Shown: positions 2,106 through 21,029 of the stretch, piece by piece
How positions within the stretch are numbered: the stretch's first letter is position 1
Layout: each line of letters opens with the position of its first letter
Origin: a virus
Direction: 5' to 3' (one strand)
Virus record (IMG/VR): IMGVR_UViG_3300044684_000192
Span: 1 to 21,029 of that record
Length of the DNA stretch: 21,029 bases
Program-made: the position numbers and the translations under genes
Notes under the pieces: model-generated
The model's database searches: none
The model's input: only the letters and a program-made list of their open reading frames with translations
Told to the model about the DNA's origin: nothing

Positions 2106-2119
2106 GAGGAGCCTGAGCA

Positions 2120-3145: not shown

Positions 3146-3165
3146 ACCTGAAGGAGAACTCCACC

Positions 3166-3609: not shown

Positions 3610-3619
3610 AGGAGCCGAC

Positions 3620-3925: not shown

Positions 3926-3949
3926 CGAGGAGTTTTCGTCGAGTGGCCT

Positions 3950-3973
3950 GGGCCGCCTTGTGCGGCCCTTTTT
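3950..3973 (+). terminator. Rho-independent terminator between head and tail genes
   Basis: A 7-bp GC-only stem (GGGCCGC / GCGGCCC) with a 5-base loop is followed directly by TTTTT. It lies in the 61-base gap after the capsid/cement genes and 14 bases before the tail gene start. Inside a late operon it probably attenuates rather than stops transcription, lowering tail gene expression relative to capsid genes. Confidence 0.8.
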
Positions 3974-3986
3974 CCAGGGGTAGGCG

Positions 3987-6893: not shown

Positions 6894-6894
6894 C

Positions 6895-7485
6895 ATGGGA
6901 CTTTCGGCGGGTTCTCTCGCAAGCGCGTCGCTCGGCATGCAGGCGGCCGGCGCGGGGATGCAGACGGTTGGGGCGTTCAGCCAGGCGCAGGGGCAAAAGT
7001 CGCTGCTCAATTCGCAGGCCGACATGGACGAGGTGAACGCGCGGATCGCCGAGGCTTCGGCCCGGTCCGCGCTGGTGGCTGGCCAGCGCCAGCAGCAAGC
7101 CAGCCAGTTGCAGACCGCGCAAACGCTGAGCACCCAGCGCGCCAGCCTGGCGGCCAATGGCGTCGACCTGGGCACCGGCAGCGCCGCAGAAATCCAGACC
7201 ACCACCAAGATGATGGGCGAGGTCGACGCGAACACGATCGCGGCCAACGCGCTGCGGCAGGCCTGGGGGTATCGCACGCAGGCCGTCAGCTACCAAAACG
7301 ACGCACTGATGCGCCGCGCGAGTGCCGACTCGATCAGCCCCTTTATGGCTGCTACGAGCACCCTGCTGGGAAGCGCCGGCAACGTCGCCTCCAGCTGGTA
7401 CCGCTTCAGCAAGGACGGGGTGTGGAGCTCGTCGTCTCTCACGACTGGCGACTTCTCGCGCATGGACCGCGGACAGGGGGGCTGA
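6895..7485 (+). CDS. Small internal virion protein (T7 gp14-like)
   Basis: A 196-residue protein starting one base after the preceding stop codon (TGAC ATG). It is Ala/Gln/Ser rich and mostly helical, with an N-terminal Gly/Ala/Ser stretch (residues 1-35) that could insert in a membrane and a long helix over about residues 40-100 with many Gln and Ala. This is the usual appearance and genomic position of podophage internal virion or ejection proteins of the gp14 type, which form the outer-membrane pore early in DNA entry. The last 13 residues (TGDFSRMDRGQGG) reappear at the end of the unrelated 71-residue protein at 20585-20800. The function is inferred from context and composition. Confidence 0.65.
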   Translation: MGLSAGSLASASLGMQAAGAGMQTVGAFSQAQGQKSLLNSQADMDEVNARIAEASARSALVAGQRQQQASQLQTAQTLSTQRASLAANGVDLGTGSAAEIQTTTKMMGEVDANTIAANALRQAWGYRTQAVSYQNDALMRRASADSISPFMAATSTLLGSAGNVASSWYRFSKDGVWSSSSLTTGDFSRMDRGQGG

Positions 7486-7714
7486 GCAATGCCACGCGTT
7501 CCGACCTACGACGACTACCAGGTGATGCCGAACGTCGCCCCCGCGGGCGGCGTCGGCTTGCCGACGATGAACCCGCAGCTGACCGGCGGCCGGCAGCTGC
7601 AGGACCTGGGGCAAGGCATGCAGCAGGCCGGTCAGGCCGCCGGCGGCATCGCCCTGGACATGCAGGACCAGGTCAACCAGGTCCGCGTGACCGATGCGAT
7701 GAACCAGGCGCGCG
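7447..7714 (+). repeat. Long direct repeat, left copy (ejection gene start)
   Basis: About 268 bases here match 20762-21029 with three differences, all synonymous, at an offset of 13,315 bases. The repeat starts in the last codons of the gp14-like gene and continues to the window end, so the true length is unknown. It could support homologous recombination that excises or duplicates the 13.3 kb between the copies. Confidence 0.95.
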
Positions 7715-9651: not shown

Positions 9652-9656
9652 CGAAC

Positions 9657-9687
9657 AACGGGCCCTTTGCGGCCCGTTTGCCTTTCT
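9657..9687 (+). terminator. Rho-independent terminator ending the late operon
   Basis: A perfect 8-bp stem (AACGGGCC / GGCCCGTT) with a six-base loop is followed by a T-rich tail (TTGCCTTTCT), starting 6 bases after the stop codon of the ejection gene. It marks the end of the structural block. Confidence 0.85.
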
Positions 9688-9706
9688 AACGCCAGTCACG
9701 CGGGTC

Positions 9707-9806
9707 GTGATTCCAAATTATGCGCTTGTGATTTCGAATGACATGGGATAGAGTCGGATCACCGACGCGCGCCAACGCTTCGGTGATCCTGACCACACCC
9801 GATCAC
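9707..9806 (+). promoter_or_regulatory. Promoter with direct-repeat and dyad operators for the accessory operon
   Basis: A candidate sigma70 promoter has -35 TTGTGA at 9726-9731, a 17-base spacer and -10 TAGAGT at 9749-9754. Just downstream, a perfect 10-bp inverted repeat (GGATCACCGA at 9756-9765 and TCGGTGATCC at 9780-9789) overlaps the expected start of transcription, with a further half-site GATCAC at 9801-9806. Upstream, GTGATTCCAAAT (9707) and GTGATTTCGAAT (9728) are direct repeats 21 bases apart, the second overlapping the -35. This is the layout of a regulated promoter. The regulator is not known; the HTH protein at 10254 is a candidate. The -10 is only a partial match to consensus. 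Confidence 0.5.
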
Positions 9807-9819
9807 TAGGAGATCGAAC

Positions 9820-10257
9820 ATGGCTACTCAGCACTCTACCTCGCTCGCGCCTGGATTCGCCGCCTATGGCGAGTGGCTGCCGCACTCCACCCAGGACGTC
9901 GAGTTCTACAAGAAGCGGTTCGGCTTTTCGACCGAGGTCGCCACCACGACGCACTTCATCGAGCGCGAGATCTACGAGTGGTCCCGCGACTCGGAACTGA
10001 GCACGGCGGAACTGGCTCGCGCCCTTGGGTGGCACCCGGCGCTGGTCCGCGCCTGTGGCCACTTCGGCGGCGACTGGCTGTTTGCGGTGGGAGAGGATGG
10101 CTTGGTGTACGCCGGGGACGTTGCAGCGCACCTGGCGCGCTGCATCTACGACGACCGCTACGCCGCTGCGTTCAACGAGTTGCGCGAGTGGGCCATCCAG
10201 CGTTGCCTCGACCGCCTGGAAGGTGGTGCGGCACCCACCAAGGAGCAACTGCAATGA
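9820..10257 (+). CDS. Hypothetical protein, first gene of the accessory operon
   Basis: A 145-residue soluble protein, start ATG 9820 with TAGGAG upstream. I do not recognise the family. It is rich in Trp, Phe and Tyr with conserved-looking segments FYKKRFGFSTEV, EIYEWSRDSELSTAELARAL and FGGDWLFAVGEDG, and it is helical towards the C-terminus (DDRYAAAFNELREWAIQRCL). The STAELARALGWHPALVRACG segment looks like a helix-turn-helix, so DNA binding is possible. The stop overlaps the ATG of the next gene (ATGA), indicating translational coupling with the HTH/coiled-coil gene. Confidence 0.7.
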   Translation: MATQHSTSLAPGFAAYGEWLPHSTQDVEFYKKRFGFSTEVATTTHFIEREIYEWSRDSELSTAELARALGWHPALVRACGHFGGDWLFAVGEDGLVYAGDVAAHLARCIYDDRYAAAFNELREWAIQRCLDRLEGGAAPTKEQLQ

Positions 10258-10748
10258 GCCTCGTGATCGACGCATTCCTGCTGGAAAAGTACGGCCCCCG
10301 TCTCGACACTGAGCAGCTGGCCGAAGTGCTCGGCACGACTGCCGGCACCATCCGCAACCAGATCAGCGCTGGGACCTTTCCGGTGAAGACCTACACGGAC
10401 GGCAACCGGCGGTTCGCCGACTACCGGGACGTGTCGGCCTTCTTCGATGAGGCCCGGATGCGCGCCGTCGCCGCGGCGCAGGCGCCGAGCTCCAGCCCGG
10501 CCGTCGCGAGGAAGCTGCCGACCAAGATGTCGCTTGAGCAGGCGGGTGCGATGATGTTGTCGCGGCTTGAGCAGGTGAGGCCGAAGACCGGCAACCTGCT
10601 CCCGTTCGACAACGCTTGGAACGGCGTGAATGCCTACCAGGCGGTGGTGAACTACACGATCGACCACCTGTGGAAGCTGATCGAGGACCAAGACCGTAGG
10701 ATCGAGGACCAGGGCCGCAGGATCGACGCGCTGGAGGCTCGCGCATAG
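10254..10748 (+). CDS. Helix-turn-helix DNA-binding protein with C-terminal coiled coil
   Basis: A 164-residue protein. Start ATG 10254 overlaps the previous stop (ATGA) and has AAGGAG upstream; longer in-frame starts lie inside the previous gene. Residues 15-60 contain a helix-turn-helix (LDTEQLAEVLGTTAGTIRNQ) followed by a beta wing (FPVKTYTDGNRRFADYRDV), the MerR/AlpA-type winged arrangement used by phage excisionases and regulators. The middle (about residues 75-130) is a linker region. The C-terminal 25 residues repeat IEDQDRRIEDQGRRID and form a short coiled coil, so it is probably a dimer. It may regulate its own operon through the dyad at 9756-9789; that is inference. Confidence 0.72.
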   Translation: MSLVIDAFLLEKYGPRLDTEQLAEVLGTTAGTIRNQISAGTFPVKTYTDGNRRFADYRDVSAFFDEARMRAVAAAQAPSSSPAVARKLPTKMSLEQAGAMMLSRLEQVRPKTGNLLPFDNAWNGVNAYQAVVNYTIDHLWKLIEDQDRRIEDQGRRIDALEARA

Positions 10749-10759
10749 GGGTGGCGCAG

Positions 10760-11116
10760 ATGGGGATGATTCTGTCCAAGGACGAGATCGCCCAGCTGAC
10801 CAGTCGAACCAGGCGAGACGCACAGGTGCTTCAGCTCAACTACCTGGGTGTGACGTACCGCGTTCGAACTGACGGAAGCATCGTGGTGCTTCGCGCGCAC
10901 GTCGAACGGCTGTTCGGTGTGACGCCTTCAACCGAAGCACCTCGGCAGCCGCCCGCGCCGTTCGTAATCGCACCCGCGGGCTCACCGGTTGATCCATCCC
11001 CATGGACTCGTGAGGCGCTGTTCGGCAGCGCGCCGAAGACGAAAGAACAGCGCGCGGGCGAACGTATCGCCAAGGCGCGCAAGAACGCGATCGCCAAGGG
11101 CTGGCGCAAGAAGTAG
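10760..11116 (+). CDS. DUF4224 domain protein
   Basis: A 118-residue basic protein. Of the candidate starts (GTG 10751, ATG 10760, ATG 10766) the ATG at 10760 is best placed behind AGGGGTGG. The N-terminal 50 residues (ILSKDEIAQLTSRTRRDAQV then YRVRTDGSIVVLRAHVERLF) match the DUF4224 pattern, a short domain frequent in phage and prophage accessory proteins, with an HTH-like first half. Biochemical function is not established to my knowledge. The middle is Pro-rich and the C-terminus strongly basic (AGERIAKARKNAIAKGWRKK), consistent with nucleic acid binding. Confidence 0.7.
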   Translation: MGMILSKDEIAQLTSRTRRDAQVLQLNYLGVTYRVRTDGSIVVLRAHVERLFGVTPSTEAPRQPPAPFVIAPAGSPVDPSPWTREALFGSAPKTKEQRAGERIAKARKNAIAKGWRKK

Positions 11117-11149
11117 GTAAACCGCGCCCATGAACAACGGGGAGGAATG

Positions 11150-11734
11150 ATGGCAGACCCTCAGTACTGCTTTCTCTACTTGGACACTTGGTGGAGCTGT
11201 CTAACGAAGGCGGAGTGGGCAGCCTGGACCACCTTTGGCGCGACGCTCCTCGGTGGGGTGGGGGCCGTCGGCGCGGTTTACGTCGCGGCCCGAGTCGCGA
11301 GGACCCAGTCAATGCTCGCGGAACAGAACCGGCGAGCAGATGCGCGAGATGATCGGCTTAGGAGCCTGACGATTTGTTGCGAAGCGGTCAAAGAGGCAAA
11401 GGCAACGGCGGCTTTGGCTTTAGAAACCCGACGGAACTCAGCCGTGTTTGACGTTGGCGCTGCGGCACGGTTCCAAGCCCTGGAAAAGACTCTCGCTGAG
11501 TGCCTCAAAGATCGTGTTGCGATCGATGCGATCGGGCCAATCACGAAGGCCAGGCAAGCGACCTCGGCGCTGATTCGCTTGTTCTACGACTCTGTGTTGG
11601 AGCGCCCTCAATTCGAGGCGCAGTGGGTGGTCTTCTTCCACGAGCTCAAAAACGCCGGTGACACTCTTGAAGCTCTTCGAGAAACTGTGACACTCGAAGT
11701 CGCCGGTGCGACTCGGAGTACCGGCGCCTCCTGA
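11150..11734 (+). CDS. Single-pass membrane protein with cytoplasmic helical domain, unknown function
   Basis: A 194-residue protein. Two ATGs are adjacent (11147 and 11150); the second has the better spacing from GGAGGA. Residues about 20-47 form one transmembrane helix (WTTFGATLLGGVGAVGAVYV), preceded by a short Trp/Cys-rich segment and followed by a charged helical region (VARTQSMLAEQNRRADARDD) typical of a stalk. The rest is helical and soluble. This arrangement is common among small host or prophage membrane proteins of unknown role, and also fits superinfection-exclusion proteins; it lacks the short length usual for a holin. AT content is a little higher than in the structural genes, consistent with separate acquisition. 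Nothing here proves a defence role. Confidence 0.65.
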   Translation: MADPQYCFLYLDTWWSCLTKAEWAAWTTFGATLLGGVGAVGAVYVAARVARTQSMLAEQNRRADARDDRLRSLTICCEAVKEAKATAALALETRRNSAVFDVGAAARFQALEKTLAECLKDRVAIDAIGPITKARQATSALIRLFYDSVLERPQFEAQWVVFFHELKNAGDTLEALRETVTLEVAGATRSTGAS

Positions 11735-11742
11735 GCTGAAGG

Positions 11743-11773
11743 AAGGGCCGGCGGCCCTTTCGGGACGCCGGCC
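11743..11773. terminator. Hairpin between convergent genes, probable bidirectional terminator
   Basis: A perfect 8-bp inverted repeat (GGCCGGCG at 11746-11753, CGCCGGCC at 11766-11773) and an overlapping 7-bp one (AAGGGCC / GGCCCTT, 3-base loop) lie between the stop codons of the convergent genes ending at 11734 (+) and 11780 (-). T-tracts on either side are short, so efficiency is uncertain. Confidence 0.5.
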
Positions 11774-11779
11774 TTCACA

Positions 11780-11893
11780 TCAGAGGTGTTTGGACAAGTA
11801 CACCAGAAGAGCCCAACCGATCCGCTCGAGCCAGCGGCCGAACTTTGCGATCTGCTCTTCGGTGAACTCCACCTCAACGGTTGCTTTGACCAT
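11780..11893 (-). CDS. Small amphipathic protein (37 residues), unknown
   Basis: A short reading frame on the minus strand: start ATG at 11893, stop at 11780. It reads MVKATVEVEFTEEQIAKFGR and then WLERIGWALLVYLSKHL. There is a good ribosome site, AAGGGA, seven bases before the ATG. It has a beta-like first ten residues, an acidic helix and a hydrophobic C-terminal helix (WALLVYL), so it may be peripheral to the membrane or a dimer. A perfect 14-base palindrome and a TATAAG -10-like box lie upstream. It is the only minus-strand gene I support. No family recognised. Confidence 0.45.
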   Translation of the reverse strand: MVKATVEVEFTEEQIAKFGRWLERIGWALLVYLSKHL

Positions 11894-11915
11894 TGGGTAA
11901 TCCCTTGGCTTCAGC

Positions 11916-11953
11916 CCCGTGCGCACGGGACGTTAATCCCGATTGAACTTATA
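11916..11953 (-). promoter_or_regulatory. Palindromic operator and -10-like box upstream of the 37-residue gene
   Basis: The perfect palindrome CCCGTGCGCACGGG occupies 11916-11929. On the minus strand it follows a TATAAG box (complement of 11948-11953; 5 of 6 matches to a -10) and precedes the ribosome site of the small gene. No convincing -35 was found, which would fit an activated promoter, or may mean the box is chance. Confidence 0.35.
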
Positions 11954-12177
11954 GAGCGCCCTGGCTGGCGCTGCCCATTGCTTATTCGAAATCACTTTGG
12001 GCGGTAGGCTCGCGCGTTCAAACACTTGGCGGAACCGCTGCGAGGGTGTCCGGGCCGAGTAGTCGGGCCGGGTCCTCGCAGGGGTAGCCTCAGCGCTTTC
12101 CTGCACTCACCTGCGGTTGCTGGCCGCACCTCCGGCTTAGCAGGCCTTTGGCGGTTACATTATGACCCGCAGATAGG

Positions 12178-12418
12178 TGGCGGACCGAATGGCGGACGGG
12201 GATCCGAATCGACCGGAGAGCTAGTATTTGCGCGGGTCTTGACAGACCCCCTTTCCGCCAGTACGCTGTGCCCGCACGATGCAATGCAGTGCAGGACAGT
12301 GACGCTAAGCAGTTGATTTGACTGCTGTTTTCTCCCTCTACAGACTGCGGCACCGTGCAATACGGTGCCAGCCACGTGCATGCGAATGCAGCACTTGCTG
12401 GCGGACAGACTGGCGGAC
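12178..12418 (+). repeat. Paired TGGCGGAC direct repeats upstream of the integrase (probable integrase arm sites)
   Basis: TGGCGGAC occurs at 12178-12185 and 12190-12197, then again at 12399-12406 and 12411-12418; both pairs have 12-base periodicity and are followed by GG. The second pair ends 11 bases before the integrase ATG. Related TGGCGG elements occur near 12025 and 12149, with a reverse copy at 12255-12260. Repeated short sites beside a tyrosine integrase gene are usually the arm sites of attP. No att core can be named because the other end of the element is outside the window. Apart from these repeats, the 12239 promoter and the small minus-strand gene, I see nothing coding in 11.9-12.43 kb. 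Confidence 0.5.
12239..12267 (+). promoter_or_regulatory. Candidate integrase promoter with a dyad over the -35
   Basis: A consensus -35 TTGACA at 12239-12244, a 17-base spacer and TACGCT (12262-12267) as a weak -10 read towards the integrase. The -35 is the loop and arm of the inverted repeat GGGTCT-TGAC-AGACCC, so a bound dimer would block polymerase. The match of the -10 is poor (3 of 6), hence modest confidence. Confidence 0.4.
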
Positions 12419-12429
12419 GGAGAACTGGA

Positions 12430-13752
12430 ATGCCAAAGCGGCGACTCCCAGCGCGCCTGCACCTGCTCACGGTGCGGCAAGTTCAGACAGCCGGCGAGGG
12501 CGACCATAGCGATGGTGGAGGGCTGATCCTCCGCGTTCGCGACGGCTCCGCCTCCTGGGTGTTCAGGTACACAGCAGCGACCGGCAAACGGCGCGAGATG
12601 GGCCTGGGGTCCGCACACCGTGCGAACCCCGCCCAGGCCGGCGAAAGCGTCGTGCAGGCCCGAGAAACGGCCGGCAAGGCGCGCGGGCAGCTGCAGCAAG
12701 GGCTCGACCCGATCGACGAACGCGAACGGCTGCGCGCGCAGCAGCGCCATGCGGTAACGGAGACCAAGGCCGCCAAGGCTCGTGACGCGCTCACCCTGGC
12801 GCGCGCCGCGCGCGACTACCACCAACGGGTGATCGAGCCCAGTCGCACCGGCAAGCACGCGGCGCAGTGGATCTCGTCCCTTGAGAACCACATCCCGCCC
12901 AGCCTCTGGCACAAGCCCGTTCACCTGGTCGAGGCGCCCGAGCTGCTGGAGGCGTTGCTGGCCATCAAGCCGCACGAGCGCGCCAGGAACCTCACGCAGG
13001 GCGACCGGGTGCTGGAAACCGTCCAGCGAGTCCGCCAAAGGCTCGACGCGGTGTTCGAGGACGCGCTGTTCCACCAGCGGTGCATGAGCAACCCCGCCGC
13101 TGCTATCAAGCGCAAGCTGCGTGAGAGCATGCCCCGGAAGCGCAAGGGGGAGTTCGCCGCGCTCCCCTATGCCGAGGCGCCAGGCCTCGTCCAGCGCTTG
13201 CGCGCCATGGACGGCATCGCGGCGCGTTGCCTCGAGTTCGGAATGCTGACGGTGGCGCGCACCGGCGAGCTGATCGAGGCCGACGAGACCGAGCTGGATC
13301 TCGACCGAGCCTTGTGGGTGATCCCCGGCGAGCGCATGAAGGCCGGCGAGGAGCACACCGTCTACCTCGGCCATCGAGCTGCCGCGATCGCTCGCGAGAT
13401 GCTCGCGCTACCGCTGCCGGACGACGCTGAGAAGCGCTGGCTGTTCCCGTCGCCGATGCTCGACGGCAAGCCGCTGAGCAATGGTGCGATGCTCGCGTTG
13501 CTCAAACGCCTGGGCGTGAACGACCGCACCACGGTGCACGGGCTGTGCCGGGCGACGTTCAGCACATGGGCCAACGAGACCGGCGCCGCGCGGCCCGACG
13601 TCATCGAGGCCTGCCTGGCCCACGAAGAGAGCAACCGCGTGCGAGCTGCATACAACCGTGCCGAGTTTGCTGCGGAGCGGCGCGCGCTGCTCGAAAAGTG
13701 GGCCGCCTTCCTGAGCGCGTCCAACGTTGTTCAGTTGCCTCGCGCCGCTTGA
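12430..13752 (+). CDS. int: Tyrosine recombinase / integrase
   Basis: A 440-residue protein. The frame opens at GTG 12355, but that extension reads through the direct repeats; ATG 12430 (MPKRRLPARLHLLTVRQVQT) with CGGAG upstream is the natural start. Residues 1-95 are the DUF4102-type N-terminal arm-binding domain (SDGGGLILRVRDGSASWVFR), about 120-225 the SAM-like core-binding domain, and 240-420 the catalytic domain. The active residues are visible: Arg277 (VARTGE), Lys304 (RMKAG), His370 and Arg374 (VHGLCRATFSTWANE, with one residue more than the usual H-x-x-R), His398 (CLAHEE) and the nucleophile Tyr408 (RAAYNRAEF). It integrates and, with an excisionase, excises the element by site-specific recombination. 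It is the first gene of the satellite-like element, 185 bases before an alpA-like gene. Confidence 0.94.
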   Translation: MPKRRLPARLHLLTVRQVQTAGEGDHSDGGGLILRVRDGSASWVFRYTAATGKRREMGLGSAHRANPAQAGESVVQARETAGKARGQLQQGLDPIDERERLRAQQRHAVTETKAAKARDALTLARAARDYHQRVIEPSRTGKHAAQWISSLENHIPPSLWHKPVHLVEAPELLEALLAIKPHERARNLTQGDRVLETVQRVRQRLDAVFEDALFHQRCMSNPAAAIKRKLRESMPRKRKGEFAALPYAEAPGLVQRLRAMDGIAARCLEFGMLTVARTGELIEADETELDLDRALWVIPGERMKAGEEHTVYLGHRAAAIAREMLALPLPDDAEKRWLFPSPMLDGKPLSNGAMLALLKRLGVNDRTTVHGLCRATFSTWANETGAARPDVIEACLAHEESNRVRAAYNRAEFAAERRALLEKWAAFLSASNVVQLPRAA

Positions 13753-13787
13753 GACGGTGCACCTAACTCGGATCCGGAGCGAGACAG

Positions 13788-13894
13788 TGCCCGGGGTGGT
13801 ACCCATACCGGCATTTGCACGCACGAGGATGCAGGGTGGTACCCATACCTGCAACGGCAAGCCGGAATATGCATGGTGCGCGTACCGGCATGCA
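13788..13894 (+). promoter_or_regulatory. Three phased dyad elements upstream of alpA
   Basis: Three units of 24-26 bases lie at 13788-13813, 13830-13853 and 13870-13894. Their centres are about 41 and 40.5 bases apart, roughly four helical turns. Each has TGC-type outer arms in inverted orientation (TGCAGG/CCTGCA in the second, TGCATG/CATGCA in the third) around a core with GTACC. The first two share GTGGTACCCATACC exactly. This looks like an operator array for cooperative binding, placed in the integrase-alpA gap. The same 12-mer GGTACCCATACC occurs at 1078-1089 in the only gap before the capsid genes. Confidence 0.55.
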
Positions 13895-13937
13895 GAACAC
13901 GCAGGATGTACGCACACGGACTGACGAGAGGACCGCA

Positions 13938-14228
13938 ATGGCAGATAGCACAACCATCCCAACCCTTCTCACGTTTGAGCAGCTGGCGAAGCACGTCTAC
14001 AACGTGTCCGTTCGTCAGCTTCGGAACATGAGCAAGGATCCCAACTTCCCGAAAGCGATCGTGCTTGGGCCGCGCACACTGCGTTACGTCAAGGCAGAGC
14101 ACGAAACCTACATCGCATCGCATTCGCGCCAGCTGGGCGAAGAGCCTAAGCAGCTCTCCGCGGCGCGAGCAGCGAAGGCCAGCGGCCGCGCTCCTGCACC
14201 GGCACCCTTCAACGGGGCGTTGGCATGA
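13938..14228 (+). CDS. AlpA-like helix-turn-helix regulator / excisionase
   Basis: A 96-residue protein, start ATG 13938 with GAGAGGA upstream; upstream in-frame sequence runs through the dyad repeats and is not coding. Residues 10-60 carry the AlpA-type winged helix: LLTFEQLAKHVYNVSVRQLR, MSKDPNFPKAIVLGPRTLRY, then AEHETYIASHSRQ. AlpA-like proteins activate the early operon or integrase of P4-like and PICI-like satellites and can serve as excisionases. The tail (residues 65-96) is Ala/Pro-rich and disordered. It follows int directly and leads an operon of overlapping genes ending with the primase, the classic int-alpA-primase order of satellites. The dyads upstream are its probable binding sites or those of another master regulator. 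Confidence 0.82.
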   Translation: MADSTTIPTLLTFEQLAKHVYNVSVRQLRNMSKDPNFPKAIVLGPRTLRYVKAEHETYIASHSRQLGEEPKQLSAARAAKASGRAPAPAPFNGALA

Positions 14229-14314
14229 ACGCACAGCACCCAACACCTCGAACCCGGCCTATGTGCCGGGTTCGTCGCTTCTGGACCTATACAACTTTTT
14301 GGTTGTACCTATGA
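14225..14314 (+). CDS. Coupled 29-residue peptide (leader-like)
   Basis: An ATG at 14225 overlaps the alpA-like stop (ATGA), and the frame ends in a TGA at 14312-14314 that overlaps the ATG of the next gene, again ATGA. The peptide starts MNAQHPTPRTRPMCRVRRF and ends in an aromatic stretch (FWTYTTFWLYL), so it is basic then hydrophobic. Two hairpins lie inside it. Its translation would carry ribosomes through the hairpins to the following start codon, which has no ribosome site of its own. Peptide function is unknown; it may act only by being translated. Confidence 0.4.
   Translation: MNAQHPTPRTRPMCRVRRFWTYTTFWLYL
14249..14307 (+). promoter_or_regulatory. Two RNA hairpins inside the coupled leader peptide
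   Basis: The first hairpin has a perfect 10-bp stem (CGAACCCGGC at 14249-14258, GCCGGGTTCG at 14265-14274) with a 6-base loop. The second has a 6-bp stem (TACAAC at 14290, GTTGTA at 14302) with loop TTTTTG and ends three bases before the next ATG at 14311. Neither has a proper T-tract after it, so they fit translational control or RNA processing better than a plain terminator. Confidence 0.5.
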
Positions 14315-14499
14315 ACGACAGCCAAGCGACCTACGCGGCAGCGCTTCGAGCTGCGAAGCTGCTCGCCGAGGCGATCGACCTCGCAACGTATCAGCAAGTC
14401 GTCGCGCTGGCTCAGCTGGCGGACACGACATATGACGACTTGCGAGATGCGGTGCGTCTGGTGCAAGACGTCGTCATCGGACCCGAGGCAGTGCGATGA
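14311..14499 (+). CDS. Small helical protein (62 residues), unknown
   Basis: Start ATG 14311, within ATGA of the leader peptide stop; upstream in-frame sequence overlaps alpA and is not convincing. The protein (MNDSQATYAAALRAAKLLAE onward) is almost entirely helical, Ala/Leu rich and acidic at the end, with no recognised motif. It ends in ATGA with the following zinc-finger-like gene. Small helical proteins in this position, between alpA and the primase, are common in satellites and often unknown. There is no ribosome site, so expression probably depends on the coupled upstream frame. Confidence 0.6.
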   Translation: MNDSQATYAAALRAAKLLAEAIDLATYQQVVALAQLADTTYDDLRDAVRLVQDVVIGPEAVR

Positions 14500-14687
14500 A
14501 CGTCCAACGCGCAACAGGACGCACCGATTGCGACCGGTGCGGCTCGGTGGCCTACCTGAACGAGCAGCGACTGTGCGCGCGGTGCGTGCAAGCCCTGCAG
14601 GCCCTCGCCAGCGGCATGCTGATCGAGCGCGCGCTCTACGCCCCAGCGACACCACCAAAAGAGGAGAAGCCCAACGATGAACCTTGA
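14496..14687 (+). CDS. Small zinc-ribbon protein
   Basis: A 63-residue protein starting in ATGA overlap with the previous gene. Two CxxC pairs (Cys12/Cys15 in CDRCG and Cys27/Cys30 in CARCV), separated by 11 residues, make a treble-clef or zinc-ribbon site. The rest is a helix and a Lys/Glu/Pro tail. Such knuckles bind DNA or RNA or mediate protein contacts; no precise family recognised. The stop overlaps the primase start by 11 bases, and the AGAGGAG that would serve the primase lies inside its last codons. Confidence 0.65.
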   Translation: MNVQRATGRTDCDRCGSVAYLNEQRLCARCVQALQALASGMLIERALYAPATPPKEEKPNDEP

Positions 14688-16845
14688 GGAATGGAACAAG
14701 GTGGTGGGAGGCACGCAAGCGCCTGCACCGACCAAAAATGGAACGGCCCGGGGCGTGTCAGCACCCCAGGCCGCGAAAGTCAAAAGCATCGAAAGCAGCG
14801 AGATCGTACAACCTGCCCAAGCCGACGACAAGGCGGCGGCGTTCATCGAGCGGGTCGTCTCGTTGCCCGCCACTGCGCCGGCGCCGCTGCGCGGGCTGCC
14901 CGGCTGGCTGGTATGGAAGGCCGAGCGCGACGGCGAGCGCGTGCGCAAGGTGCCGTACTACGCTGAAGGCGGCCGGCGGGCAGGCCTGCAAGGTGCACCC
15001 GAGGACCGCGCGCAGCTCGTGACCTTCGAGGCCGCCTGCACGGCGGCGCTTCGCAGGGGCTTCGACGGCGTCGGGCTGGCCCTCATGCCGGAGTGGGGCG
15101 TGTGCGCGCTGGACTTCGATCGATGCATCGGGGACTCGGGCGAGCTGCCCGCGGAGATCCGGGATATCGCGTCGCTCACCTATGCCGAGCGTTCGCCGAG
15201 TGGGCGAGGTGTTCGCGCCTTTGTGCGCGGCAACCTCGGAGACCACAAGGACCACGGCGAGCCCTACGGCTTCGAGGTGTTCAGCACGAAGGGCTTCGTG
15301 ACGGTCACCGGCGATCGTCTCGACCTGGTCGACATGCTCGGCAACGAGGACGTCATCGCGGACCCGCCGGCGTGCCTGCTTGCCTTGTGCGAGACGCGCT
15401 TTCGCCGCCAGGATGCTGAGGCCAGCCCGGACGCTGTGTCGGCACCGCTGGGGCTTGCCGTCGAGGACCTGCAGCGGGCGCTTGCCGTCCTCGACCCAAG
15501 CATGCCCCATGACCCGTGGCTGAGGGTAGGCATGGCCCTGCACCACGAGACGGCAGGAGAGCGGTTCGATCTCTGGGACGAATGGTCGAGCCGAGGGAAC
15601 ACCTACCCGGGCACGGAGAAGCTGCGCGAGCGGTGGGACAGCTTCGGCCGCTCCACGCGCCAGGTCACCGCCGCCTGGTTGATGCACCTGGCGAACGAGT
15701 GCGGCGCAGGCATCAACTTGGCGTCCCTCGTGGCCGACGATTTCGAGGTGATCAGCGACGCGCCTGCTATGCCGCGATCGTCCCAGCGCGAACTCAAGCA
15801 AGCTGACCAGGTTGACTTCATCGACTTCGCGCAGCTTGCGGTTGCGCCACCCCCGCCGCGGCGCTGGGTGGTCGACCAGTGGTTGCCGCGCGGCGCCGTG
15901 ACCGCACTGTTCGGCCGCGGCGGCCACGGTAAGTCCCTCGCCGCCCAGCAGCTGGCGATCGCAGTGGCCAACGGCCTTCCATGGCTTGGCTGGGCCACTA
16001 CGGGCGGGCCAGCCTTGGGCATGTTCTGCGAGGACGACGCCGACGAGCTCCTGCGACGAGCAGGCGACATCTTCGCCAGCGAGCTGCTGGAACCTGCGCA
16101 AGCCAGCGGGGGCTTGTTTCTGGACGCACGCGCCGGCAAGGTCAACACGCTGATGTCGTTCGGGCAGGACCACGTCGGGCGCCCCGAACCGCTGCTCGTC
16201 GAGTTGCGGCATCAATGCAGCCAGCTGCGGCCGGCCCTGGTGGTGCTGGACAACATCGCGCAGATGTTCGCGGGTCAGGAGAACGCGCGGGCGGAGGCCA
16301 CCCAGTTCTGCAACGCGCTGACCGCCATCGCGCGAGAGTTCGATTGCGCGGTGCTGCTGCTTGGCCACCTGGCCAAGGCCGAAGGGTCCGAGTTCAGCGG
16401 CTCAACGGCATGGGATGCGGCGGTGCGCTCGCGATTGATGCTCGAGCGGCAATCGGACGGCACGACGGTGCTGCGCAAGCTGAAGGCGAACTACTCGGAC
16501 CTGGACGAGATCCGGCTGCAGTACCGGGCGGGCTGCTTTGCGGCGCTGCCCACGGGTGCCAATGCGCCTCCGGATCTTGTCGAGGCGGTGAAACATGCGG
16601 TCGTTGAAGCAGTGCACGCGCTCACCGCCAGGCGGCAGCCTACGTCCCACAACCCGACGACTCGCAACTACCTGCCGAAGCTGATGGTTGCCGAGGGGCT
16701 CAACGAGGGCCACGGCGTCGATCTGCTTCGCTCGGCTATGGGCGCGTTGATCGACGCGGGCACGCTCATCCCGGACGCGGAGCTCTGGCGAAAGCCCGAT
16801 CGCCACATGGCAACTGGGCTTGCGTTGGCAGAGGGCGCACGATGA
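14677..16845 (+). CDS. Primase-polymerase / RepA-like helicase fusion replication protein
   Basis: A 722-residue protein, start ATG 14677 with GAGGAG upstream. Residues 1-70 are a linker. Residues about 72-230 are an archaeo-eukaryotic-type primase-polymerase domain: acidic pair in CALDFD (Asp146 and Asp148), SPSGRGVR at 173-180 and VTGDRLD at 210-216. Residues about 262-342 are a PriCT-2 domain (LRVGMALHHE; TEKLRERWDSF). Residues about 395-620 are a RepA/RecA-like ATPase: Walker A GRGGHGKS at 413-420, CEDDADELLRR at 451-461, Walker B LVVLDN at 521-526, and GHLAKAEGSEFSGSTAWD as the sensor region. The tail is a small winged-helix-like domain. It would prime and unwind the element's own DNA, like P4 alpha protein in role. 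The probable origin lies directly downstream. Confidence 0.9.
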   Translation: MNLEEWNKVVGGTQAPAPTKNGTARGVSAPQAAKVKSIESSEIVQPAQADDKAAAFIERVVSLPATAPAPLRGLPGWLVWKAERDGERVRKVPYYAEGGRRAGLQGAPEDRAQLVTFEAACTAALRRGFDGVGLALMPEWGVCALDFDRCIGDSGELPAEIRDIASLTYAERSPSGRGVRAFVRGNLGDHKDHGEPYGFEVFSTKGFVTVTGDRLDLVDMLGNEDVIADPPACLLALCETRFRRQDAEASPDAVSAPLGLAVEDLQRALAVLDPSMPHDPWLRVGMALHHETAGERFDLWDEWSSRGNTYPGTEKLRERWDSFGRSTRQVTAAWLMHLANECGAGINLASLVADDFEVISDAPAMPRSSQRELKQADQVDFIDFAQLAVAPPPPRRWVVDQWLPRGAVTALFGRGGHGKSLAAQQLAIAVANGLPWLGWATTGGPALGMFCEDDADELLRRAGDIFASELLEPAQASGGLFLDARAGKVNTLMSFGQDHVGRPEPLLVELRHQCSQLRPALVVLDNIAQMFAGQENARAEATQFCNALTAIAREFDCAVLLLGHLAKAEGSEFSGSTAWDAAVRSRLMLERQSDGTTVLRKLKANYSDLDEIRLQYRAGCFAALPTGANAPPDLVEAVKHAVVEAVHALTARRQPTSHNPTTRNYLPKLMVAEGLNEGHGVDLLRSAMGALIDAGTLIPDAELWRKPDRHMATGLALAEGAR

Positions 16846-16947
16846 GCGGCGTTGCTGCTGCGGGCTTGATGGGGCAACGCCGCATTAGCAACCCCGCAAG
16901 CCCGCGCCGTGAGGAGGCTGCTTTGCGGCGTTGTTGCTGCGGGATTG
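16846..16947 (+). repeat. Interleaved inverted repeats (pseudoknot topology) and a 23-bp direct repeat after the primase gene
   Basis: Arms GCGGCGTTGC (16846-16855) and GCAACGCCGC (16874-16883) form a perfect 10-bp stem. GCGGGCTTG (16860-16868) and CAAGCCCGC (16897-16905) form a perfect 9-bp stem whose left arm lies in the loop of the first, giving a-b-a'-b' order. The 23 bases from 16846 recur at 16925-16947 with two changes. It begins at the primase stop codon. An RNA pseudoknot, a processed small RNA, or an origin structure are all possible. Confidence 0.6.
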
Positions 16948-17145
16948 CCTGCGGGATTGGTCGAAAGGAAACCCGCAGCGCCGCAAGAAGGCGCGGCGGT
17001 GTTCCCCCCTACAAAGGGGACACCGCGCCGCCGCACTCGGTTGCCGCCGCGGGATCGTTGGCAAGCCCGCCCCTGGGCGCGCAACAAACCGCAACGCTCT
17101 GCACCGTGCGCCCGATGGGCCTGTCGCGTGTTGCACACCGCTGGC

Positions 17146-17436
17146 GAAATGTGACGCCTACGCGCGTGCGCGGGGCCAGGGAATCTCACACCCGAAAAGC
17201 ATTCGAACACCTAAAAGGCCGCGTGGTTTGCACCACCCGGCGGACAGTGCCGCCTGGCGTTGGAAATCGACACCTAAAAAGGGCGACGGCTCAGTCGAGG
17301 GCCAGCGTAGGAAATCGACAGGTGAGGACTCCCCGGGGTCGCCTGTCGGCCAATCGGCATTTTTCTGCACGCTGCGGTTTTCTGCGTGGTTCGCACGCGT
17401 GTTCGCTCCCTGCCGCTTCCGGATGTGACACCTCAA
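17146..17436 (+). other. Iteron-like repeats, probable replication origin region
   Basis: Degenerate copies of a motif around GGAAATCGACACCTAAAAGG occur at 17146-17160, 17180-17199, 17199-17218, 17262-17283, 17310-17324 and 17419-17436. The 11 bases GGAAATCGACA are identical at 17262 and 17310, and CACCTAAAA at 17209 and 17271. They fill a 690-base stretch (16846-17536) with no credible gene between the primase/helicase and the next gene, the place where P4-like satellites often keep replication sites. A 233-codon open frame crosses the stretch but has no protein-like composition. The origin role is inferred from position and repetition. Confidence 0.5.
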
Positions 17437-17536
17437 GCGTCCGCCTAACCTGCTGCAAACACACGCGTGCGGGGCTTGCGCCTTCCACGTCCGCCACTGG
17501 GTCCGCCATCGACGCGGCAGCGAGGGGGAGCGCAGC

Positions 17537-18037
17537 ATGCTGACCATCACCACCGATGCCTTCGATTCGCCGGGGCAACTGGCCGCCGCGGTGCGTCTGG
17601 CGATCGAGGGTCGACCGGGGCCTTTCGTCCCGCAGCTCATGGCTCTGTGCTGCGAGCTCATGCGAAGCGTCGCAGCGCCGCCGCGTCACGTTCCTGCGCC
17701 CCTGGTGTTGGCGCCCCAGGGCGACCGCACCTTCGCCACCGCCGGCGGCAACTGGGAGCCGCCGTCGCCGTTGCCGGCCGTGCAGCTGTTTCTTCTGGCC
17801 GCACGCCCGGACGACTGGGTGCCTCTCGATGGGGGCGTCCAGCGGCTGCCAGCGGTTCGAGCCGCGCTCAAGCGTGCCCGCGAGGGCCTGGCGCAGCTGG
17901 ACCCCCGCTTCGCGGTCGTATTCCGGACAGCCCGCACGGAGAACGCGACCGGCCTGCGGCTGCGCACGTGGCAAGGCCTGGTGATGGGGCGGCTGCGCAC
18001 GAACGGCAACACGCCGATTCGAATAACCGTCACATAG
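17537..18037 (+). CDS. Hypothetical protein of the satellite-like element
   Basis: A 166-residue protein, start ATG 17537 with GAGGGGGAG upstream. Family not recognised. It is rich in Ala, Leu, Arg and Pro; residues 10-50 are helical with two adjacent cysteines (ALCCELM), the middle is Pro/Gly rich (PAPLVLAPQGDRTFATAGGN) and the end has a basic segment (LRTWQGLVMGRLRTNGN). No membrane segment. It is the first gene after the origin-like region, 48 bases before the next gene, so it may open the late or packaging part of the element. A role in acting on the helper phage is possible but unsupported by motif. Confidence 0.65.
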   Translation: MLTITTDAFDSPGQLAAAVRLAIEGRPGPFVPQLMALCCELMRSVAAPPRHVPAPLVLAPQGDRTFATAGGNWEPPSPLPAVQLFLLAARPDDWVPLDGGVQRLPAVRAALKRAREGLAQLDPRFAVVFRTARTENATGLRLRTWQGLVMGRLRTNGNTPIRITVT

Positions 18038-18085
18038 CCGTCACTCGCTTGGCGATGCCCGGTGCCCGCGCCCACCATGCTGGGC

Positions 18086-18829
18086 ATGAGCACCAGCAAC
18101 GACATCGCGGAACAACTCGTCGCCATCGACCGGGAGATCGAGGCACAGCGGCAGACCTGCGTGAACGCTGCCGCTGCGATGGCGAAGGCACCAACGGACA
18201 AGGCCGCGCGTACAGCGCACCGCAAGGCAAGCGGGCACTTGGCCGAACTCGTCGCGGACCGGGAAGCGCTGAAGGCGGCCTTCGATCTCGCGGCTGTGGC
18301 CGACCGCGAGCAGCGCCGCGCGGAGCGCATTGAGCGCGCCAAGCAGCTATGCGAGACGGCATCTCAGGCCCAGGGTGCGCGATCGACCAAGGCATTCATG
18401 CTGGAGATCGCGCTGGCCCACTTCGTCAACGCCCTGGCCGACTGGGCTGGCGCCCAGCAGGACTTCGAAAACGCGATCGCCAACTGCGCGAGCACATTGC
18501 TCACGGACAACGCCAGGGCCGCCGGCTTCGCCGTCGATCGCCGGCGCGAGGTGGTCGAAGTGGAGGTGAACCGGGCGGCTTGGCACCGCTACAGCTTGGC
18601 CAATGAACTCGCGAAGCGCATGTTCCGCGCGTCTGCGCTCCTCGGGCACGCAGGCGCGGAACACCTGGCGGTGAAGTTCATGGGCAACCCTAACGAGCTC
18701 GAATCACTGCACCAGGCCGACGTGGAGAACGGCGCAGCTGCCGTCTTCGGCTTGCGCGACTTCGTGAACCGCTGGAGCAAGCCCCTGGTCACTGAAGAGC
18801 AGGACGGCGTCGAGGCGGCGGCGAAATGA
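18086..18829 (+). CDS. Helical protein upstream of the second scaffold gene, unknown
   Basis: I place the start at ATG 18086 (MSTSNDIAEQLVAIDREIEA), giving 247 residues; ATG 18077 and GTG 18062 are in frame and possible, and none has a strong ribosome site. The protein is almost wholly helical: residues 5-95 form long charged heptad-like helices (LAELVADREALKAAFDLAAV; DREQRRAERIERAKQLCETA), followed by a globular helical part with FMLEIALAHFVNALADWAGA. No family recognised. It is coupled by ATGA to the scaffold-like gene. Coiled-coil proteins beside scaffolds could be assembly or size-determining factors, but this is speculation from position. Confidence 0.65.
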   Translation: MSTSNDIAEQLVAIDREIEAQRQTCVNAAAAMAKAPTDKAARTAHRKASGHLAELVADREALKAAFDLAAVADREQRRAERIERAKQLCETASQAQGARSTKAFMLEIALAHFVNALADWAGAQQDFENAIANCASTLLTDNARAAGFAVDRRREVVEVEVNRAAWHRYSLANELAKRMFRASALLGHAGAEHLAVKFMGNPNELESLHQADVENGAAAVFGLRDFVNRWSKPLVTEEQDGVEAAAK

Positions 18830-19455
18830 TCGACGCCAACGTCCTCTACCCGTCCGCAACGCCGGCTGCAGCACCCGCTCCGCAAGCAGCTGCCGCTCCG
18901 GCGCCGGTGGCCGCATCGCCTGCACCGGCCGCGAGTCCAGAGACGGCGGATACGCGAGTCGATGAGCTGTACGCAGGGCCTGCAGAAGCAGCGCCGCTCG
19001 CGGTGCCGGAGAACATCCGCGCGCTGAGGAAGGCGAGCGAGTCGACAGCCGACATGCTGTACGGCGCCACAGCGGTCGACCCGGTGATTGCCGGCATCTT
19101 CGAAGGTGCGGAGCTCACAGTCCCGGAGCGCAAGGCAGCTTCGGTGGAGATGACCCGCATGGCGCGCGACGTGGGCCTCGACCAGGACGACCTGGCGGAA
19201 ATGGCGAGCCGTGCGCCGGACGTGCGGCAGCTCACGCCGGAACAAGTGGGCCGCAACCAGGCCGAGGCCGCTCGCATGCTGCGGGAGGCATTCGGCGACC
19301 AGGCCGCGCAGGCCTTGGCCGATGCGCAGAAGCTGGCCCTGCGCGATCCACGTACGGCAGCCCTGCTGGACAAAACAGGCCTGGGCAACGACCCCCAGAC
19401 CATCCTCAAGTTCGCCCGACTGGCAGTGCGTGAACGCAGCCGTGGGCGCCTCTGA
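18826..19455 (+). CDS. Scaffold-like protein of the satellite-like element
   Basis: A 209-residue protein starting in ATGA overlap with the previous gene. The first 60 residues are Ala/Pro repeats (disordered) and the rest is helical and charged. Two blocks resemble the scaffold-like protein at 1425-2105 in the same order. Residues 97-130 (MTRMARDVGLDQDDLAEMAS) match its LARDLNLPQDAAQKLAEA region. Residues 171-200 (ALRDPRTAALLDKTGLGNDP then QTILKFARLA) match its ADPKGELAELLESTGFGDHP and EVIRAFHRIG. It is followed by a second cement gene, but there is no major capsid gene in between as there is in the resident phage. An alternative scaffold acting on the helper capsid protein could change capsid size. 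Homology is judged by eye. Confidence 0.65.
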   Translation: MIDANVLYPSATPAAAPAPQAAAAPAPVAASPAPAASPETADTRVDELYAGPAEAAPLAVPENIRALRKASESTADMLYGATAVDPVIAGIFEGAELTVPERKAASVEMTRMARDVGLDQDDLAEMASRAPDVRQLTPEQVGRNQAEAARMLREAFGDQAAQALADAQKLALRDPRTAALLDKTGLGNDPQTILKFARLAVRERSRGRL

Positions 19456-19472
19456 CCTTGTAAGGAGCGACG

Positions 19473-19916
19473 ATGTTCCACGATGCACTTTTGAGCCTCT
19501 CCTCGGCTCAGACCGTCACCGGCTCAGCCGCGGTGACGTCCACCAACACGATCGATGTCGGCTCCGTGCGGGATCTCGTGGGCACTGACCCCCCGATCGT
19601 CGAGGTCTCGGTCAACACGTCCTTCGCCGGCCTGACCTCGCTGGAGGTGCAGGCCATAGCGTGCTCCGACCCTTCGCTGATGTCGAACCTCGCCGTGGTT
19701 GGTTCGTCGGGACCGATTCCTGTGGCGAGCCTTACCGCTGGCGCGCGGTTCGCCGTGGCTCTCAGTGCCCGCAATGCCCTCGCCGGTCAACGCTACCTTG
19801 GACTGCGCTACGTCATCACTGGCGTGGGCACAGCAGGCGTGGTGTCGGCGAGCCTGGCGCCGCAAATCCAGGACGGCGGACAGAAGATCGTCACGCCGAC
19901 CTTCACCATCATCTGA
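19473..19916 (+). CDS. Second Bbp16 family capsid cement protein
   Basis: A 147-residue protein, start ATG 19473 with AAGGAG upstream. It is the same length as the cement protein at 3166-3609 and shares its main motifs: DALLSLSSAQTVTGS, FAGLTSLEVQ, LTAGARF, GQRYLGLRYVITGVGTAG and IQDGGQK. The most divergent part is residues 28-50. It should therefore bind the outside of a BPP-1-type capsid as trimers. Being a diverged paralogue and not a recent copy, it may be adapted to a different capsid geometry or compete with the resident protein. It follows the scaffold-like gene by 17 bases. Confidence 0.88.
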   Translation: MFHDALLSLSSAQTVTGSAAVTSTNTIDVGSVRDLVGTDPPIVEVSVNTSFAGLTSLEVQAIACSDPSLMSNLAVVGSSGPIPVASLTAGARFAVALSARNALAGQRYLGLRYVITGVGTAGVVSASLAPQIQDGGQKIVTPTFTII

Positions 19917-19927
19917 CGGAGAGCCCT

Positions 19928-20197
19928 ATGCCCAAGTATCGAGTCCTCGAAAAGTCCTTCATCGACAACCACATCCGCGAGGCTGGCGACGTCGTCGAGT
20001 ACGACGGCTACCCCAGTGAAAACCTCGAGCCCCTGTGCGACGAAGGCCGCGCCAAGCAGGAGGAAGGCTTCAAGCTTCGCGAGCAGCAGCTTCGCGACTT
20101 GGTCGAGCAGGCGAAGCAGCCGGGCTTCTTTGTGGTCGGCGCGCGCGAGCCGAAGACGCCGCCGCCTCCCGCTCCCGATGGGCAAGGGGTGGTCTGA
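19928..20197 (+). CDS. Second copy of the small protein that follows the cement gene
   Basis: An 89-residue protein with start ATG 19928 and CGGAG upstream; longer in-frame starts overlap the cement gene. Its first 50 residues match the protein at 3620-3925 closely (MPKYRVLEKSFIDNHIREAG; DVVEYDGYPSENLEPLCDEG; RAKQEEGF). The C-terminal halves are unrelated: here a short helix and a Pro-rich end (PKTPPPPAPDG). Conservation of the cement + partner pair in both clusters argues for a shared capsid-related function of the N-terminal domain. Confidence 0.8.
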   Translation: MPKYRVLEKSFIDNHIREAGDVVEYDGYPSENLEPLCDEGRAKQEEGFKLREQQLRDLVEQAKQPGFFVVGAREPKTPPPPAPDGQGVV

Positions 20198-20209
20198 AGG
20201 GCGTCGACC

Positions 20210-20557
20210 ATGAGCACGAACCTCACCGCTGCGGTGCGTCGGCTCATGGCCGAGCATCCCAACCTCGGCCCCTTCGGGTGGCGCGACACACCCAGCCCGT
20301 TCACGCCCACAAGCGACTTCATCAACCAGGTGGCAGCAGCGGCGGACTACATCAGCCTGCGCGGGTTGCCGCTGCGATGCGGTAGCTACGCGCTCCAGCA
20401 CCTGGTCGAGGAACACAAGCGCATGTACGTGTCGAACGGTGCGCTGATCGTGGCCGCGCTCTTGGCCGGCTATCGACCTGTTCGCTACGGCAGTGGACCC
20501 AACTGCCGCTTCGAGGCGCCTGTCGCCCAGGCCGCCGCCGCCCAGGCCGCCGCCTAG
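20210..20557 (+). CDS. Hypothetical protein with Ala-rich tail
   Basis: A 115-residue protein, start ATG 20210 with GAAGGG upstream. No confident family. The core has RGLPLRCGSYALQHLVEEHK followed by RMYVSNGALIVAALLAGYRP, a helical, slightly hydrophobic segment that resembles small DNA-binding or accessory proteins of mobile elements; the end is an imperfect Ala/Gln repeat (VAQAAAAQAAA). There is no counterpart in the resident phage block at the same place, where the tail tube genes lie, so it is specific to the second cluster. Confidence 0.6.
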   Translation: MSTNLTAAVRRLMAEHPNLGPFGWRDTPSPFTPTSDFINQVAAAADYISLRGLPLRCGSYALQHLVEEHKRMYVSNGALIVAALLAGYRPVRYGSGPNCRFEAPVAQAAAAQAAA

Positions 20558-20584
20558 TTCGACAAACAAGTCAGGAGCATCCCA

Positions 20585-20800
20585 ATGGTCAACGACACGT
20601 GCCCAATAAACTGGGCCAACCCCTACTTGCAAGACGCAGCCGACTACCTGAACGGAATCGGACCGGTGGGCCTTGATTGGCACCCGAACGACGCCGCGGG
20701 GACCAAAGGCACGACGCAGCCTTCGCAGACCGACGATTCGACTGCCCCAGCCGAAGCGACCGGCGACTTCTCGCGCATGGACCGCGGACAGGGAGGCTGA
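20585..20800 (+). CDS. Chimeric 71-residue protein ending in the tail of the gp14-like protein
   Basis: Start ATG 20585 with AGGAG upstream. The first 58 residues (MVNDTCPINWANPYLQDAAD onward) are unlike the internal virion protein at 6895-7485, but the last 13 (TGDFSRMDRGQGG) are the same, and the DNA identity with the resident phage begins there and runs on through the ejection gene. This is what a recombination joint inside the 3' end of a gene would leave. The N-terminal part is acidic and Trp/Tyr containing, with no recognised motif; whether the protein is functional or only keeps the frame in order is open. Confidence 0.6.
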   Translation: MVNDTCPINWANPYLQDAADYLNGIGPVGLDWHPNDAAGTKGTTQPSQTDDSTAPAEATGDFSRMDRGQGG

Positions 20801-21029
20801 GCAATGCCACGCGTTCCGACCTACGACGACTACCAGGTGATGCCGAACGTCGCCCCCGCGGGCGGCGTCGGCCTGCCGACGATGAACCCGCAGCTGACCG
20901 GAGGCCGGCAGCTGCAGGACCTGGGGCAAGGCATGCAGCAGGCCGGTCAGGCCGCCGGCGGCATCGCCCTGGACATGCAGGACCAGGTCAACCAGGTCCG
21001 CGTGACCGATGCGATGAACCAGGCGCGCG
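20762..21029 (+). repeat. Long direct repeat, right copy (ejection gene start)
   Basis: The right copy of the repeat at 7447-7714. Three base changes in 268 (GGG/GGA, TTG/CTG, GGC/GGA codons) contrast with the strong divergence of the cement and scaffold paralogues, showing that this part was acquired or converted much later. Confidence 0.95.
20804..21029 (+). CDS. Second ejection protein gene, 5' part (runs off the window)
   Basis: The first 75 codons of a gene starting at ATG 20804. The encoded residues are identical to the first 75 of the ejection/lytic transglycosylase protein at 7489-9651; only two synonymous base changes occur within the visible coding part (Leu TTG/CTG and Gly GGC/GGA). 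The transglycosylase domain would lie beyond the right edge, so it is unknown whether the copy is complete. If it is, the element carries its own ejection protein, which is unusual for a satellite. Confidence 0.8.
   Translation, partial: MPRVPTYDDYQVMPNVAPAGGVGLPTMNPQLTGGRQLQDLGQGMQQAGQAAGGIALDMQDQVNQVRVTDAMNQAR

Follow-up and report, generated by a model that had tools for sequence, protein, structure and literature searches.

The 21,029-base window analyzed here, which is the complete IMG/VR virus record G000, carries the start of an ejection-protein gene twice, and the question it raises is how one late gene came to stand at two places in a single record and to which elements the two copies belong.

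The repeat and the end of the record

Positions 20757-21029 repeat positions 7442-7714 directly on the plus strand, at a spacing of 13,315 bases and with 4 mismatches over 273 bases (approximately 99% identity). The mismatches are limited to positions 20761, 20794, 20873 and 20902 and all four are synonymous (ACC/ACT, GGA/GGG, CTG/TTG and GGA/GGC). The left copy comprises the last 13 codons (stop included) of a gp14-like gene and the start of the ejection gene, whose first 75 codons encode the same protein in both copies (75/75). Upstream of 20757 identity to the left copy is lost abruptly. The initial annotation had likewise placed an abrupt start of identity within the last 13 codons of the gp14-like gene, and its count of three synonymous changes in 268 bases is obtained when counting begins at 20762. 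It had also described the ejection gene as fused behind a foreign N-terminus, which does not hold, since the right ejection gene has its own ATG at 20804 and the fused part is the gp14 tail only.

The right copy includes 127 bases (20903-21029) identical to 7588-7714, and the record ends exactly 127 bases past the last mismatch. We take 127 to be a usual largest k of the assembler behind such data. If this value applies, the record end resembles an assembly branch at which two sequence paths become indistinguishable, and the right copy therefore probably stays identical past the edge. The 127-base end probably shows only that the assembler met a repeat, and is not evidence of circularity. No exact match to a 50-base piece of this segment was found in the other viral contigs, a set from which near records may be missing.

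The position of the repeat at the very end of the record could suggest that the right copy is simply the left one placed twice. An artefactual copy would be identical, however, and this explanation was rejected on the four synonymous differences; moreover, the upstream part of the 71-residue frame that ends in the right copy is joined to it in frame. We consider pure misassembly very improbable. The repeat is real and recent, and is best read as a late gene common to a phage and its satellite.

The left block

Positions 1-7485 (plus strand) were assigned to a BPP-1-like phage, hereafter the helper, by PHROGs and PDB matches. A fibre gene end is followed by an unnamed ORF (567-1076) and by genes identified with PHROGs as scaffold (1425-2105), major capsid protein (MCP; 2120-3145), cement (3166-3609), phrog_590 protein (3620-3925), gp11-like (3987-4685), gp12-like (4686-6893) and gp14-like (6895-7485). 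The capsid protein matched PDB 3j4u_A (E 2.1e-102), and the cement profile A4, which includes both copies of the window, matched 8cjz_B and 3j4u_H (E 2.9e-14 for the latter). The block has the capsid and cement proteins of the BPP-1 type and the corresponding gene order: in BPP-1 (AY029185.2), the source type of the late genes, scaffold, MCP, cement, gp11, gp12, gp14, gp15 and gp16 follow one another in the same way.

The 14,500-base viral contig L009 carries genes for primase, TerL, portal and fibre. Its end is identical in every letter to window positions 1-201, and it is the natural left continuation of the helper phage. None of the viral contigs could be recognised as carrying the gp16 of this helper. 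Among the other phage loci, the L006/L004 record (43,111 bases) has gp15 matches at both ends and is probably a circularly permuted complete genome, and L145 is a remnant with gp16, scaffold, capsid and cement genes that adjoins tRNA-Leu and an integrase fragment on the opposite strand.

Gene context of gp15

The gp15-like gene (7489-9651, plus strand) is full length and encodes a 720-residue ejection protein with a lytic transglycosylase domain (phrog_10475; SLT domain matches in PDB). Its downstream context was compared with that of 75 phage loci having at least 2 kb past gp15, drawn from 97 stretches, a large gene being defined as an ORF of more than 300 residues starting within 300 bases of the gp15 end. 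Such a gene follows gp15 in all 75, and the window gp15 differs from every one of them. In the close relatives L003 and L004 the large gene encodes a gp16-like protein of about 1,880 and 2,050 residues, respectively. The window gp15 instead has a different last stretch, followed by a hairpin and then by a small regulator gene. The region of the gp16 start codon can be recognised by eye at the end of the window gp15, as if the operon had been cut just past it. We read the part of gp15 past 7714 as the satellite's copy or as common to both elements.

The G+C hairpin directly 3' of gp15 (9652-9690, plus strand) is terminator-like by eye only. It was not flagged in a terminator scan and the folding energy of 9640-9700 (-23.4 kcal/mol, z just -1.18) is not exceptional, so that a terminator at this position was not accepted.

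The right block

The rest of the window, all on the plus strand, has the genes of a mobile element. Regulatory and accessory genes (9820-11734; Pfam, PHROGs) comprise a weak HTH gene (9820-10257), an HTH_17 gene (10251-10748), a DUF4224/excisionase-like gene (10751-11116), a domain found also in the related element S25, and a gene for a membrane-like protein with a coil (11147-11734). They are followed by a 620-base intergenic stretch (11735-12354), presumed to hold attP since in three integrated relatives 91-167 bases lie between att and the start of the integrase gene. Next come a tyrosine integrase (12355-13752; Pfam Arm-DNA-bind_3, Phage_int_M and Phage_integrase), an AlpA-like or excisionase-like regulator (13815-14228; phrog_66, E 3.9e-7, with Pfam AlpA below cut-off) and a primase-helicase (14677-16845; PriCT_2, AAA_25), which shares 42% of 636 aligned residues with the primase of the helper. 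Two uncharacterised genes (17537-18829; 166 and 247-255 residues), the second overlapping the scaffold start, precede a satellite-type scaffold homologue with an N-terminal LYPS motif (18826-19455; phrog_458, E 0.0014, and alignment, tree and motif count). Cement (19473-19916; phrog_427, and PDB 8cjz_B and 3j4u_H with profile A4), a phrog_590 protein (19928-20197; PHROGs), an uncharacterised protein of 115 residues (20210-20557; weak PHROG matches only, best E 0.015) and the 71-residue frame lead to the right gp15 start. A gene at a position like that of 18062-18829 recurs upstream of the scaffold in the related elements S174, S165 and G108; leave-one-out profiles recovered 0 of 5 and so did not support a common origin, the position alone being recurrent.

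Protein identity between the right and left blocks is 35% for scaffold, 42% for primase, 50% for cement, 58% for the phrog_590 protein and 100% for the start of gp15. On account of this difference, the gp15 start is read from identity as the fresh exchange among the shared genes. That a recent exchange took place with the resident phage or one closely related to it, as the initial annotation suggested, is thereby upheld in part: the approximately 99% identity, the purely synonymous differences and the 35-58% identity of the other common genes all favour it, and the partner, rather than a second phage, is satellite-like.

Only 17 bases separate scaffold and cement in the right block, with no MCP between them. 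Profiles built from phage loci for MCP, portal, gp11 and gp12 match 84, 63, 88 and 93 of 97 phage stretches (some of these being cut before the genes in question). At E 0.01 none of the four matched anything in 7485-21029, and five related elements were equally negative; searching 7485-21029 for TerL, portal or tail genes also found none. These absences bear on another possible origin of the block, namely that it is a second, decayed BPP-1-like prophage, that the left phage truly lost gp16 and that the repeat arose by gene conversion between two resident phages, gene conversion with the resident phage having been among the readings of the initial annotation. The primase, scaffold, cement and phrog_590 homologues do stand in phage order and the gp15 starts are near-identical, as such a prophage would have them, but the short scaffold-cement gap and the missing terminase, portal and tail genes speak against it.

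If closed on itself at the repeat, the right block measures 13,315 bases. Opened upstream of the integrase, it reads int, AlpA, primase, scaffold, cement, mini-gene, gp15, regulators. The integrase and AlpA-like genes lie on the same strand, which is the inward integrase plus AlpA arrangement of phage-inducible chromosomal islands (PICIs) provided that attP lies upstream of the integrase and with the reservation that AlpA is below the Pfam cut-off. As in Gram-negative PICIs, there is a replication zone with a primase and a late zone in which helper late genes make up a partial virion set. No Bro-type domain was seen in the Pfam results for the right block, a scan that covered all but two small genes at 14245-14687. 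Capsid-forming PICIs are presumably defined by an MCP of their own, and the block is not of this class, with no MCP match at E 0.01 in 7485-21029. No att site was identified in the window element; such sites were defined in its relatives S24, S174 and S53.

Related elements in bacterial genomes

A comparison of 96 gp15 loci, 17 from bacterial genomes and 79 from viral contigs, revealed two (L024 from Castellaniella and L025 from Azonexus hydrophilus) with integrase and primase genes upstream and without MCP, portal, gp11 or gp12. L017 and L084 also appear without gp12, but their stretches begin too near gp14 to judge. Among 399 genomes of one order, gp14-family matches were present in 20 and cement-family matches in 16. 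Fourteen stretches examined from these matches included three new satellite-like elements (S53, S165 and S174) and two repeat views of known ones; the other nine were phage-like, a remnant, or without matches. A profile of the three satellite scaffolds (window, S165 and S174) gave five matches in the 399 genomes: two known, two new on short contigs (G108 and G401) and a weak one in a genome whose locus has a phage-type gp14 and cement pair. The same profile found none in 369 genomes drawn from the class, a set that held no positive control.

Seven related loci (S24, S25, S53, S165, S174, G401 and G108) are thus available in bacteria. S24 spans 15,509 bp between 20-base repeats in tRNA-Leu and S174 spans 13,836 bp between 20-base repeats at the tmRNA gene. 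For S53 (15,765 bp) the joined flanks restore tRNA-Leu, which three other junctions tried did not; no bounding repeat was found for S165. That the phage structural genes are likewise absent from integrated elements with clean boundaries is a further point against a decayed prophage.

Cement occurs in the window element, S53 and S174, gp14 in S24, S25, S53 and S165, and gp15 in the window element, S24, S25 and S53. Profile searches found no scaffold in S24, S25 or S53 and no gp15 in S174 or S165, and judged by this gene content the satellite family is loose. Scaffold, cement, one gene and gp15 stand in a row in G401, near the order of the window. TerL was found in S174 by profile and in S25 by PHROG. 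The satellite-like elements L153 (TerL at 7564-9132, minus strand) and L025 (17183-18985) carry a TerL of their own, that of L153 being 56% identical to the helper-type TerL. Proteins of phrog_684 (virion structural) and phrog_1145 follow gp15 in L024 (14186-16657), L025 (13986-16436) and L144 (16310-18838), and phrog_684-like genes also lie 3' of gp15 in some phage loci (L026, L027 and L103).

The scaffold motif

The satellite scaffolds differ from those of the phages in the place of a short motif. The pattern [LM]Y[PGSA][NSTAG] was sought within the last 16 or the first 20 residues of 67 distinct phage scaffolds. It was present in the last 16 residues of 46, with [LM]Y there in 54; in the remaining 13 the end is mostly occupied by a variant (FYG, for example) or by another sequence. 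None of the 67 has the strict motif near the N-terminus. By contrast, all five satellite scaffolds (window, S165, S174, G108 and G401) have it in the first 20 residues and lack it at the C-terminus. The pattern was first seen in three of them and then recovered in G108 and G401, the match of G108 to the satellite-scaffold profile starting only at profile position 17. These five rows are few and related and may count as one event.

In a tree of 73 scaffolds those of the window, S165 and S174 stand apart from the 70 phage scaffolds on a branch with support 99/97, which carries a long-branch warning. As a single query the window scaffold found no relatives in the viral contigs. The satellite scaffolds, being a group apart in which the motif is relocated, also argue against the decayed prophage, which on all this evidence we regard as improbable.

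The 71-residue protein at the right edge

The frame at 20585-20800 (plus strand) joins a motif from the gp16 N-terminus, NPYLQDAADYLNG, to a motif from the gp14 tail, GDFSRMDRGQGG. The latter forms its last 12 residues and, with the stop, matches the gp14 end; the former matches the N-terminus of the large gp16-like ejection protein of L003 and L004. The initial annotation had called the upstream 58 codons unrelated, which must be revised for the stretch NPYLQDAADYLNG. The pattern NPY...AADY occurs also at the gp16 N-terminus in L003 and L004, and GDFxRMD occurs in L003 gp16, the left gp14 tail and the 71-residue protein; one strand of all loci compared was scanned and held no further occurrence of either. 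In L003 (8819) the gp16 stretch reads GDFARMDR, which is absent from L004 gp16. The gp14 tails of the relatives L003, L005 and L006 end differently, so that the tail covered by the shared joint is an unusual one for gp14.

Origin of the joint

The record end 127 bases past the last mismatch, the gp15 context, the missing MCP, portal, gp11 and gp12, the bounded relatives, the gene order of G401 and the scaffold grouping together support a satellite. On these grounds the right block is probably a PICI-like element of some 13.3 kb that lives as a satellite of BPP-1-like podoviruses, and it probably exchanged its last late gene very recently with this helper. BPP-1 is a complete phage, whereas the satellite would lack MCP, gp11, gp12, gp14, gp16, portal and TerL. 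The exchanged unit would comprise gp15, the ribosome site in front of it and the final gp14 codons. The odd gp14 tail would be accounted for by an exchange from satellite to helper, the gp16 remnant by one in the opposite direction. The element is proposed to close on itself at the repeat (7715 to 21029), in which case 7715-9651 would be its own gp15 end, and the record would join helper and satellite through the common gene, as the result either of two paths merged in assembly or of a real crossover. It counts against this explanation that the right copy could run on into a helper gp16. Further points against it are that none of the contigs was recognised as holding this helper's gp16, that the scaffold profile matched 0 of 369 genomes of the class, that gene content in the family is loose and that the scaffold tree carries its long-branch warning.

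A physically real joint, with the satellite lying inside the helper genome at gp15 as a cointegrate formed by homologous recombination or as a helper-embedded satellite, would be a variant of the same explanation for the satellite and a rival for the record, and in it the right gp15 would lead on to helper gp16. A single crossover would be expected to produce the order seen (helper gp14, gp15, satellite, gp15 start). The satellite and late genes are co-oriented, as in the helper-embedded PICIs described by Tommasini, Mageeney and Williams 2023 (PMC10111431), where homologous recombination is suggested for one tandem. On the other hand, the two repeats are 4.9 kb (left) and 8.4 kb (right) away from the integrase, which in the three relatives sits 91-167 bases from att, and this distance makes an integrase-made embedding at gp15 unlikely. 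The block does not show the insertion into a helper late gene, driven by an integrase beside att, that marks helper-embedded PICIs. With its length and its four mismatches the repeat does not resemble the short core of an att site, and a cointegrate would exceed the size of the helper's relatives (records of 38,850 and 43,111 bases). A real joint is therefore possible but doubtful, and the joining of helper and satellite in one record may well be an assembly product.

For the satellite preferred here, we propose that after induction of the helper the satellite primase would replicate the satellite, and that its scaffold and cement would compete with those of the helper, yielding heads built from helper capsid protein and probably smaller. 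In those heads the satellite ejection protein would replace or supplement that of the helper. Use of the helper capsid with its own scaffold, cement and ejection protein in the head is suggested by analogy with known satellites. Only tentatively do we go further and propose a distinct satellite lineage, with a scaffold of reversed polarity (LYxN moved from the C- to the N-terminus), heads of satellite size, ejection proteins of its own, including the 71-residue docking mini-protein, and repeated swaps of the gp14 tail and gp15 with the helper. In such a lineage the mini-protein would join docking motifs of gp16 and gp14, and the swaps would keep the satellite's parts compatible with the helper.

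Relation to known satellites

The nearest report among the matches listed is that on helper-embedded PICIs (PMC10111431), in which late-gene capture is described. The Gram-negative PICIs with captured late genes share with the window element an int and AlpA-like pair, a replication gene and a late zone with captured helper genes, and their tRNA sites recur in its relatives. The differences are that the helper here is a BPP-1-like podovirus, that the late zone consists of scaffold, cement and ejection proteins and that no Bro zone was seen. In that paper no PICI late cluster is reported to be perfectly identical to one of a prophage, the longest match being 7243 bp at 87.5%, whereas in the window 273 bases approximately 99% identical to the helper are joined to a satellite.

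According to Dokland 2019 (PMC6893505), the internal scaffold CpmB of SaPIs also has a short motif in common with the scaffold of its helper, and the two are believed to compete for one site on the capsid protein. By this analogy we infer that the LYxN motif docks to the capsid protein. The CpmB motif is C-terminal like that of its helper, whereas in the window the motif has moved to the N-terminus of a protein homologous to the phage scaffold. PLE TcaP and P4 Sid (PMC10945586) are likewise satellite proteins that resize helper heads, which was shown there and is predicted here; they are external scaffolds, and the protein in the right block is similar to the scaffold that the helper itself encodes. 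Among the matches listed from the open-access literature, judged by titles and the starts of abstracts, none described a satellite of a short-tailed phage that brings ejection proteins of its own.

If the proposed satellite is real, helper and satellite have been found together with a late gene approximately 99% identical, which would allow the origin of a captured gene to be identified and its exchange to be followed directly. It would also be a pointer to short-tailed-phage satellites equipped with ejection proteins of their own, and would raise the question whether the satellite controls the injected channel as well as the head. A sharp and testable prediction on the setting of head size would follow from the moved scaffold motif.

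Minor features

No known RNA families were found in the window at gathering score and no tRNA genes, and the search for defence genes gave a single weak match, of the HTH_17 protein to mad1. The far end of satellites often carries accessory genes. The gene at 11147-11734 is placed at the far end of the element, and its membrane-like product has no family in PHROGs, Pfam or PADLOC.
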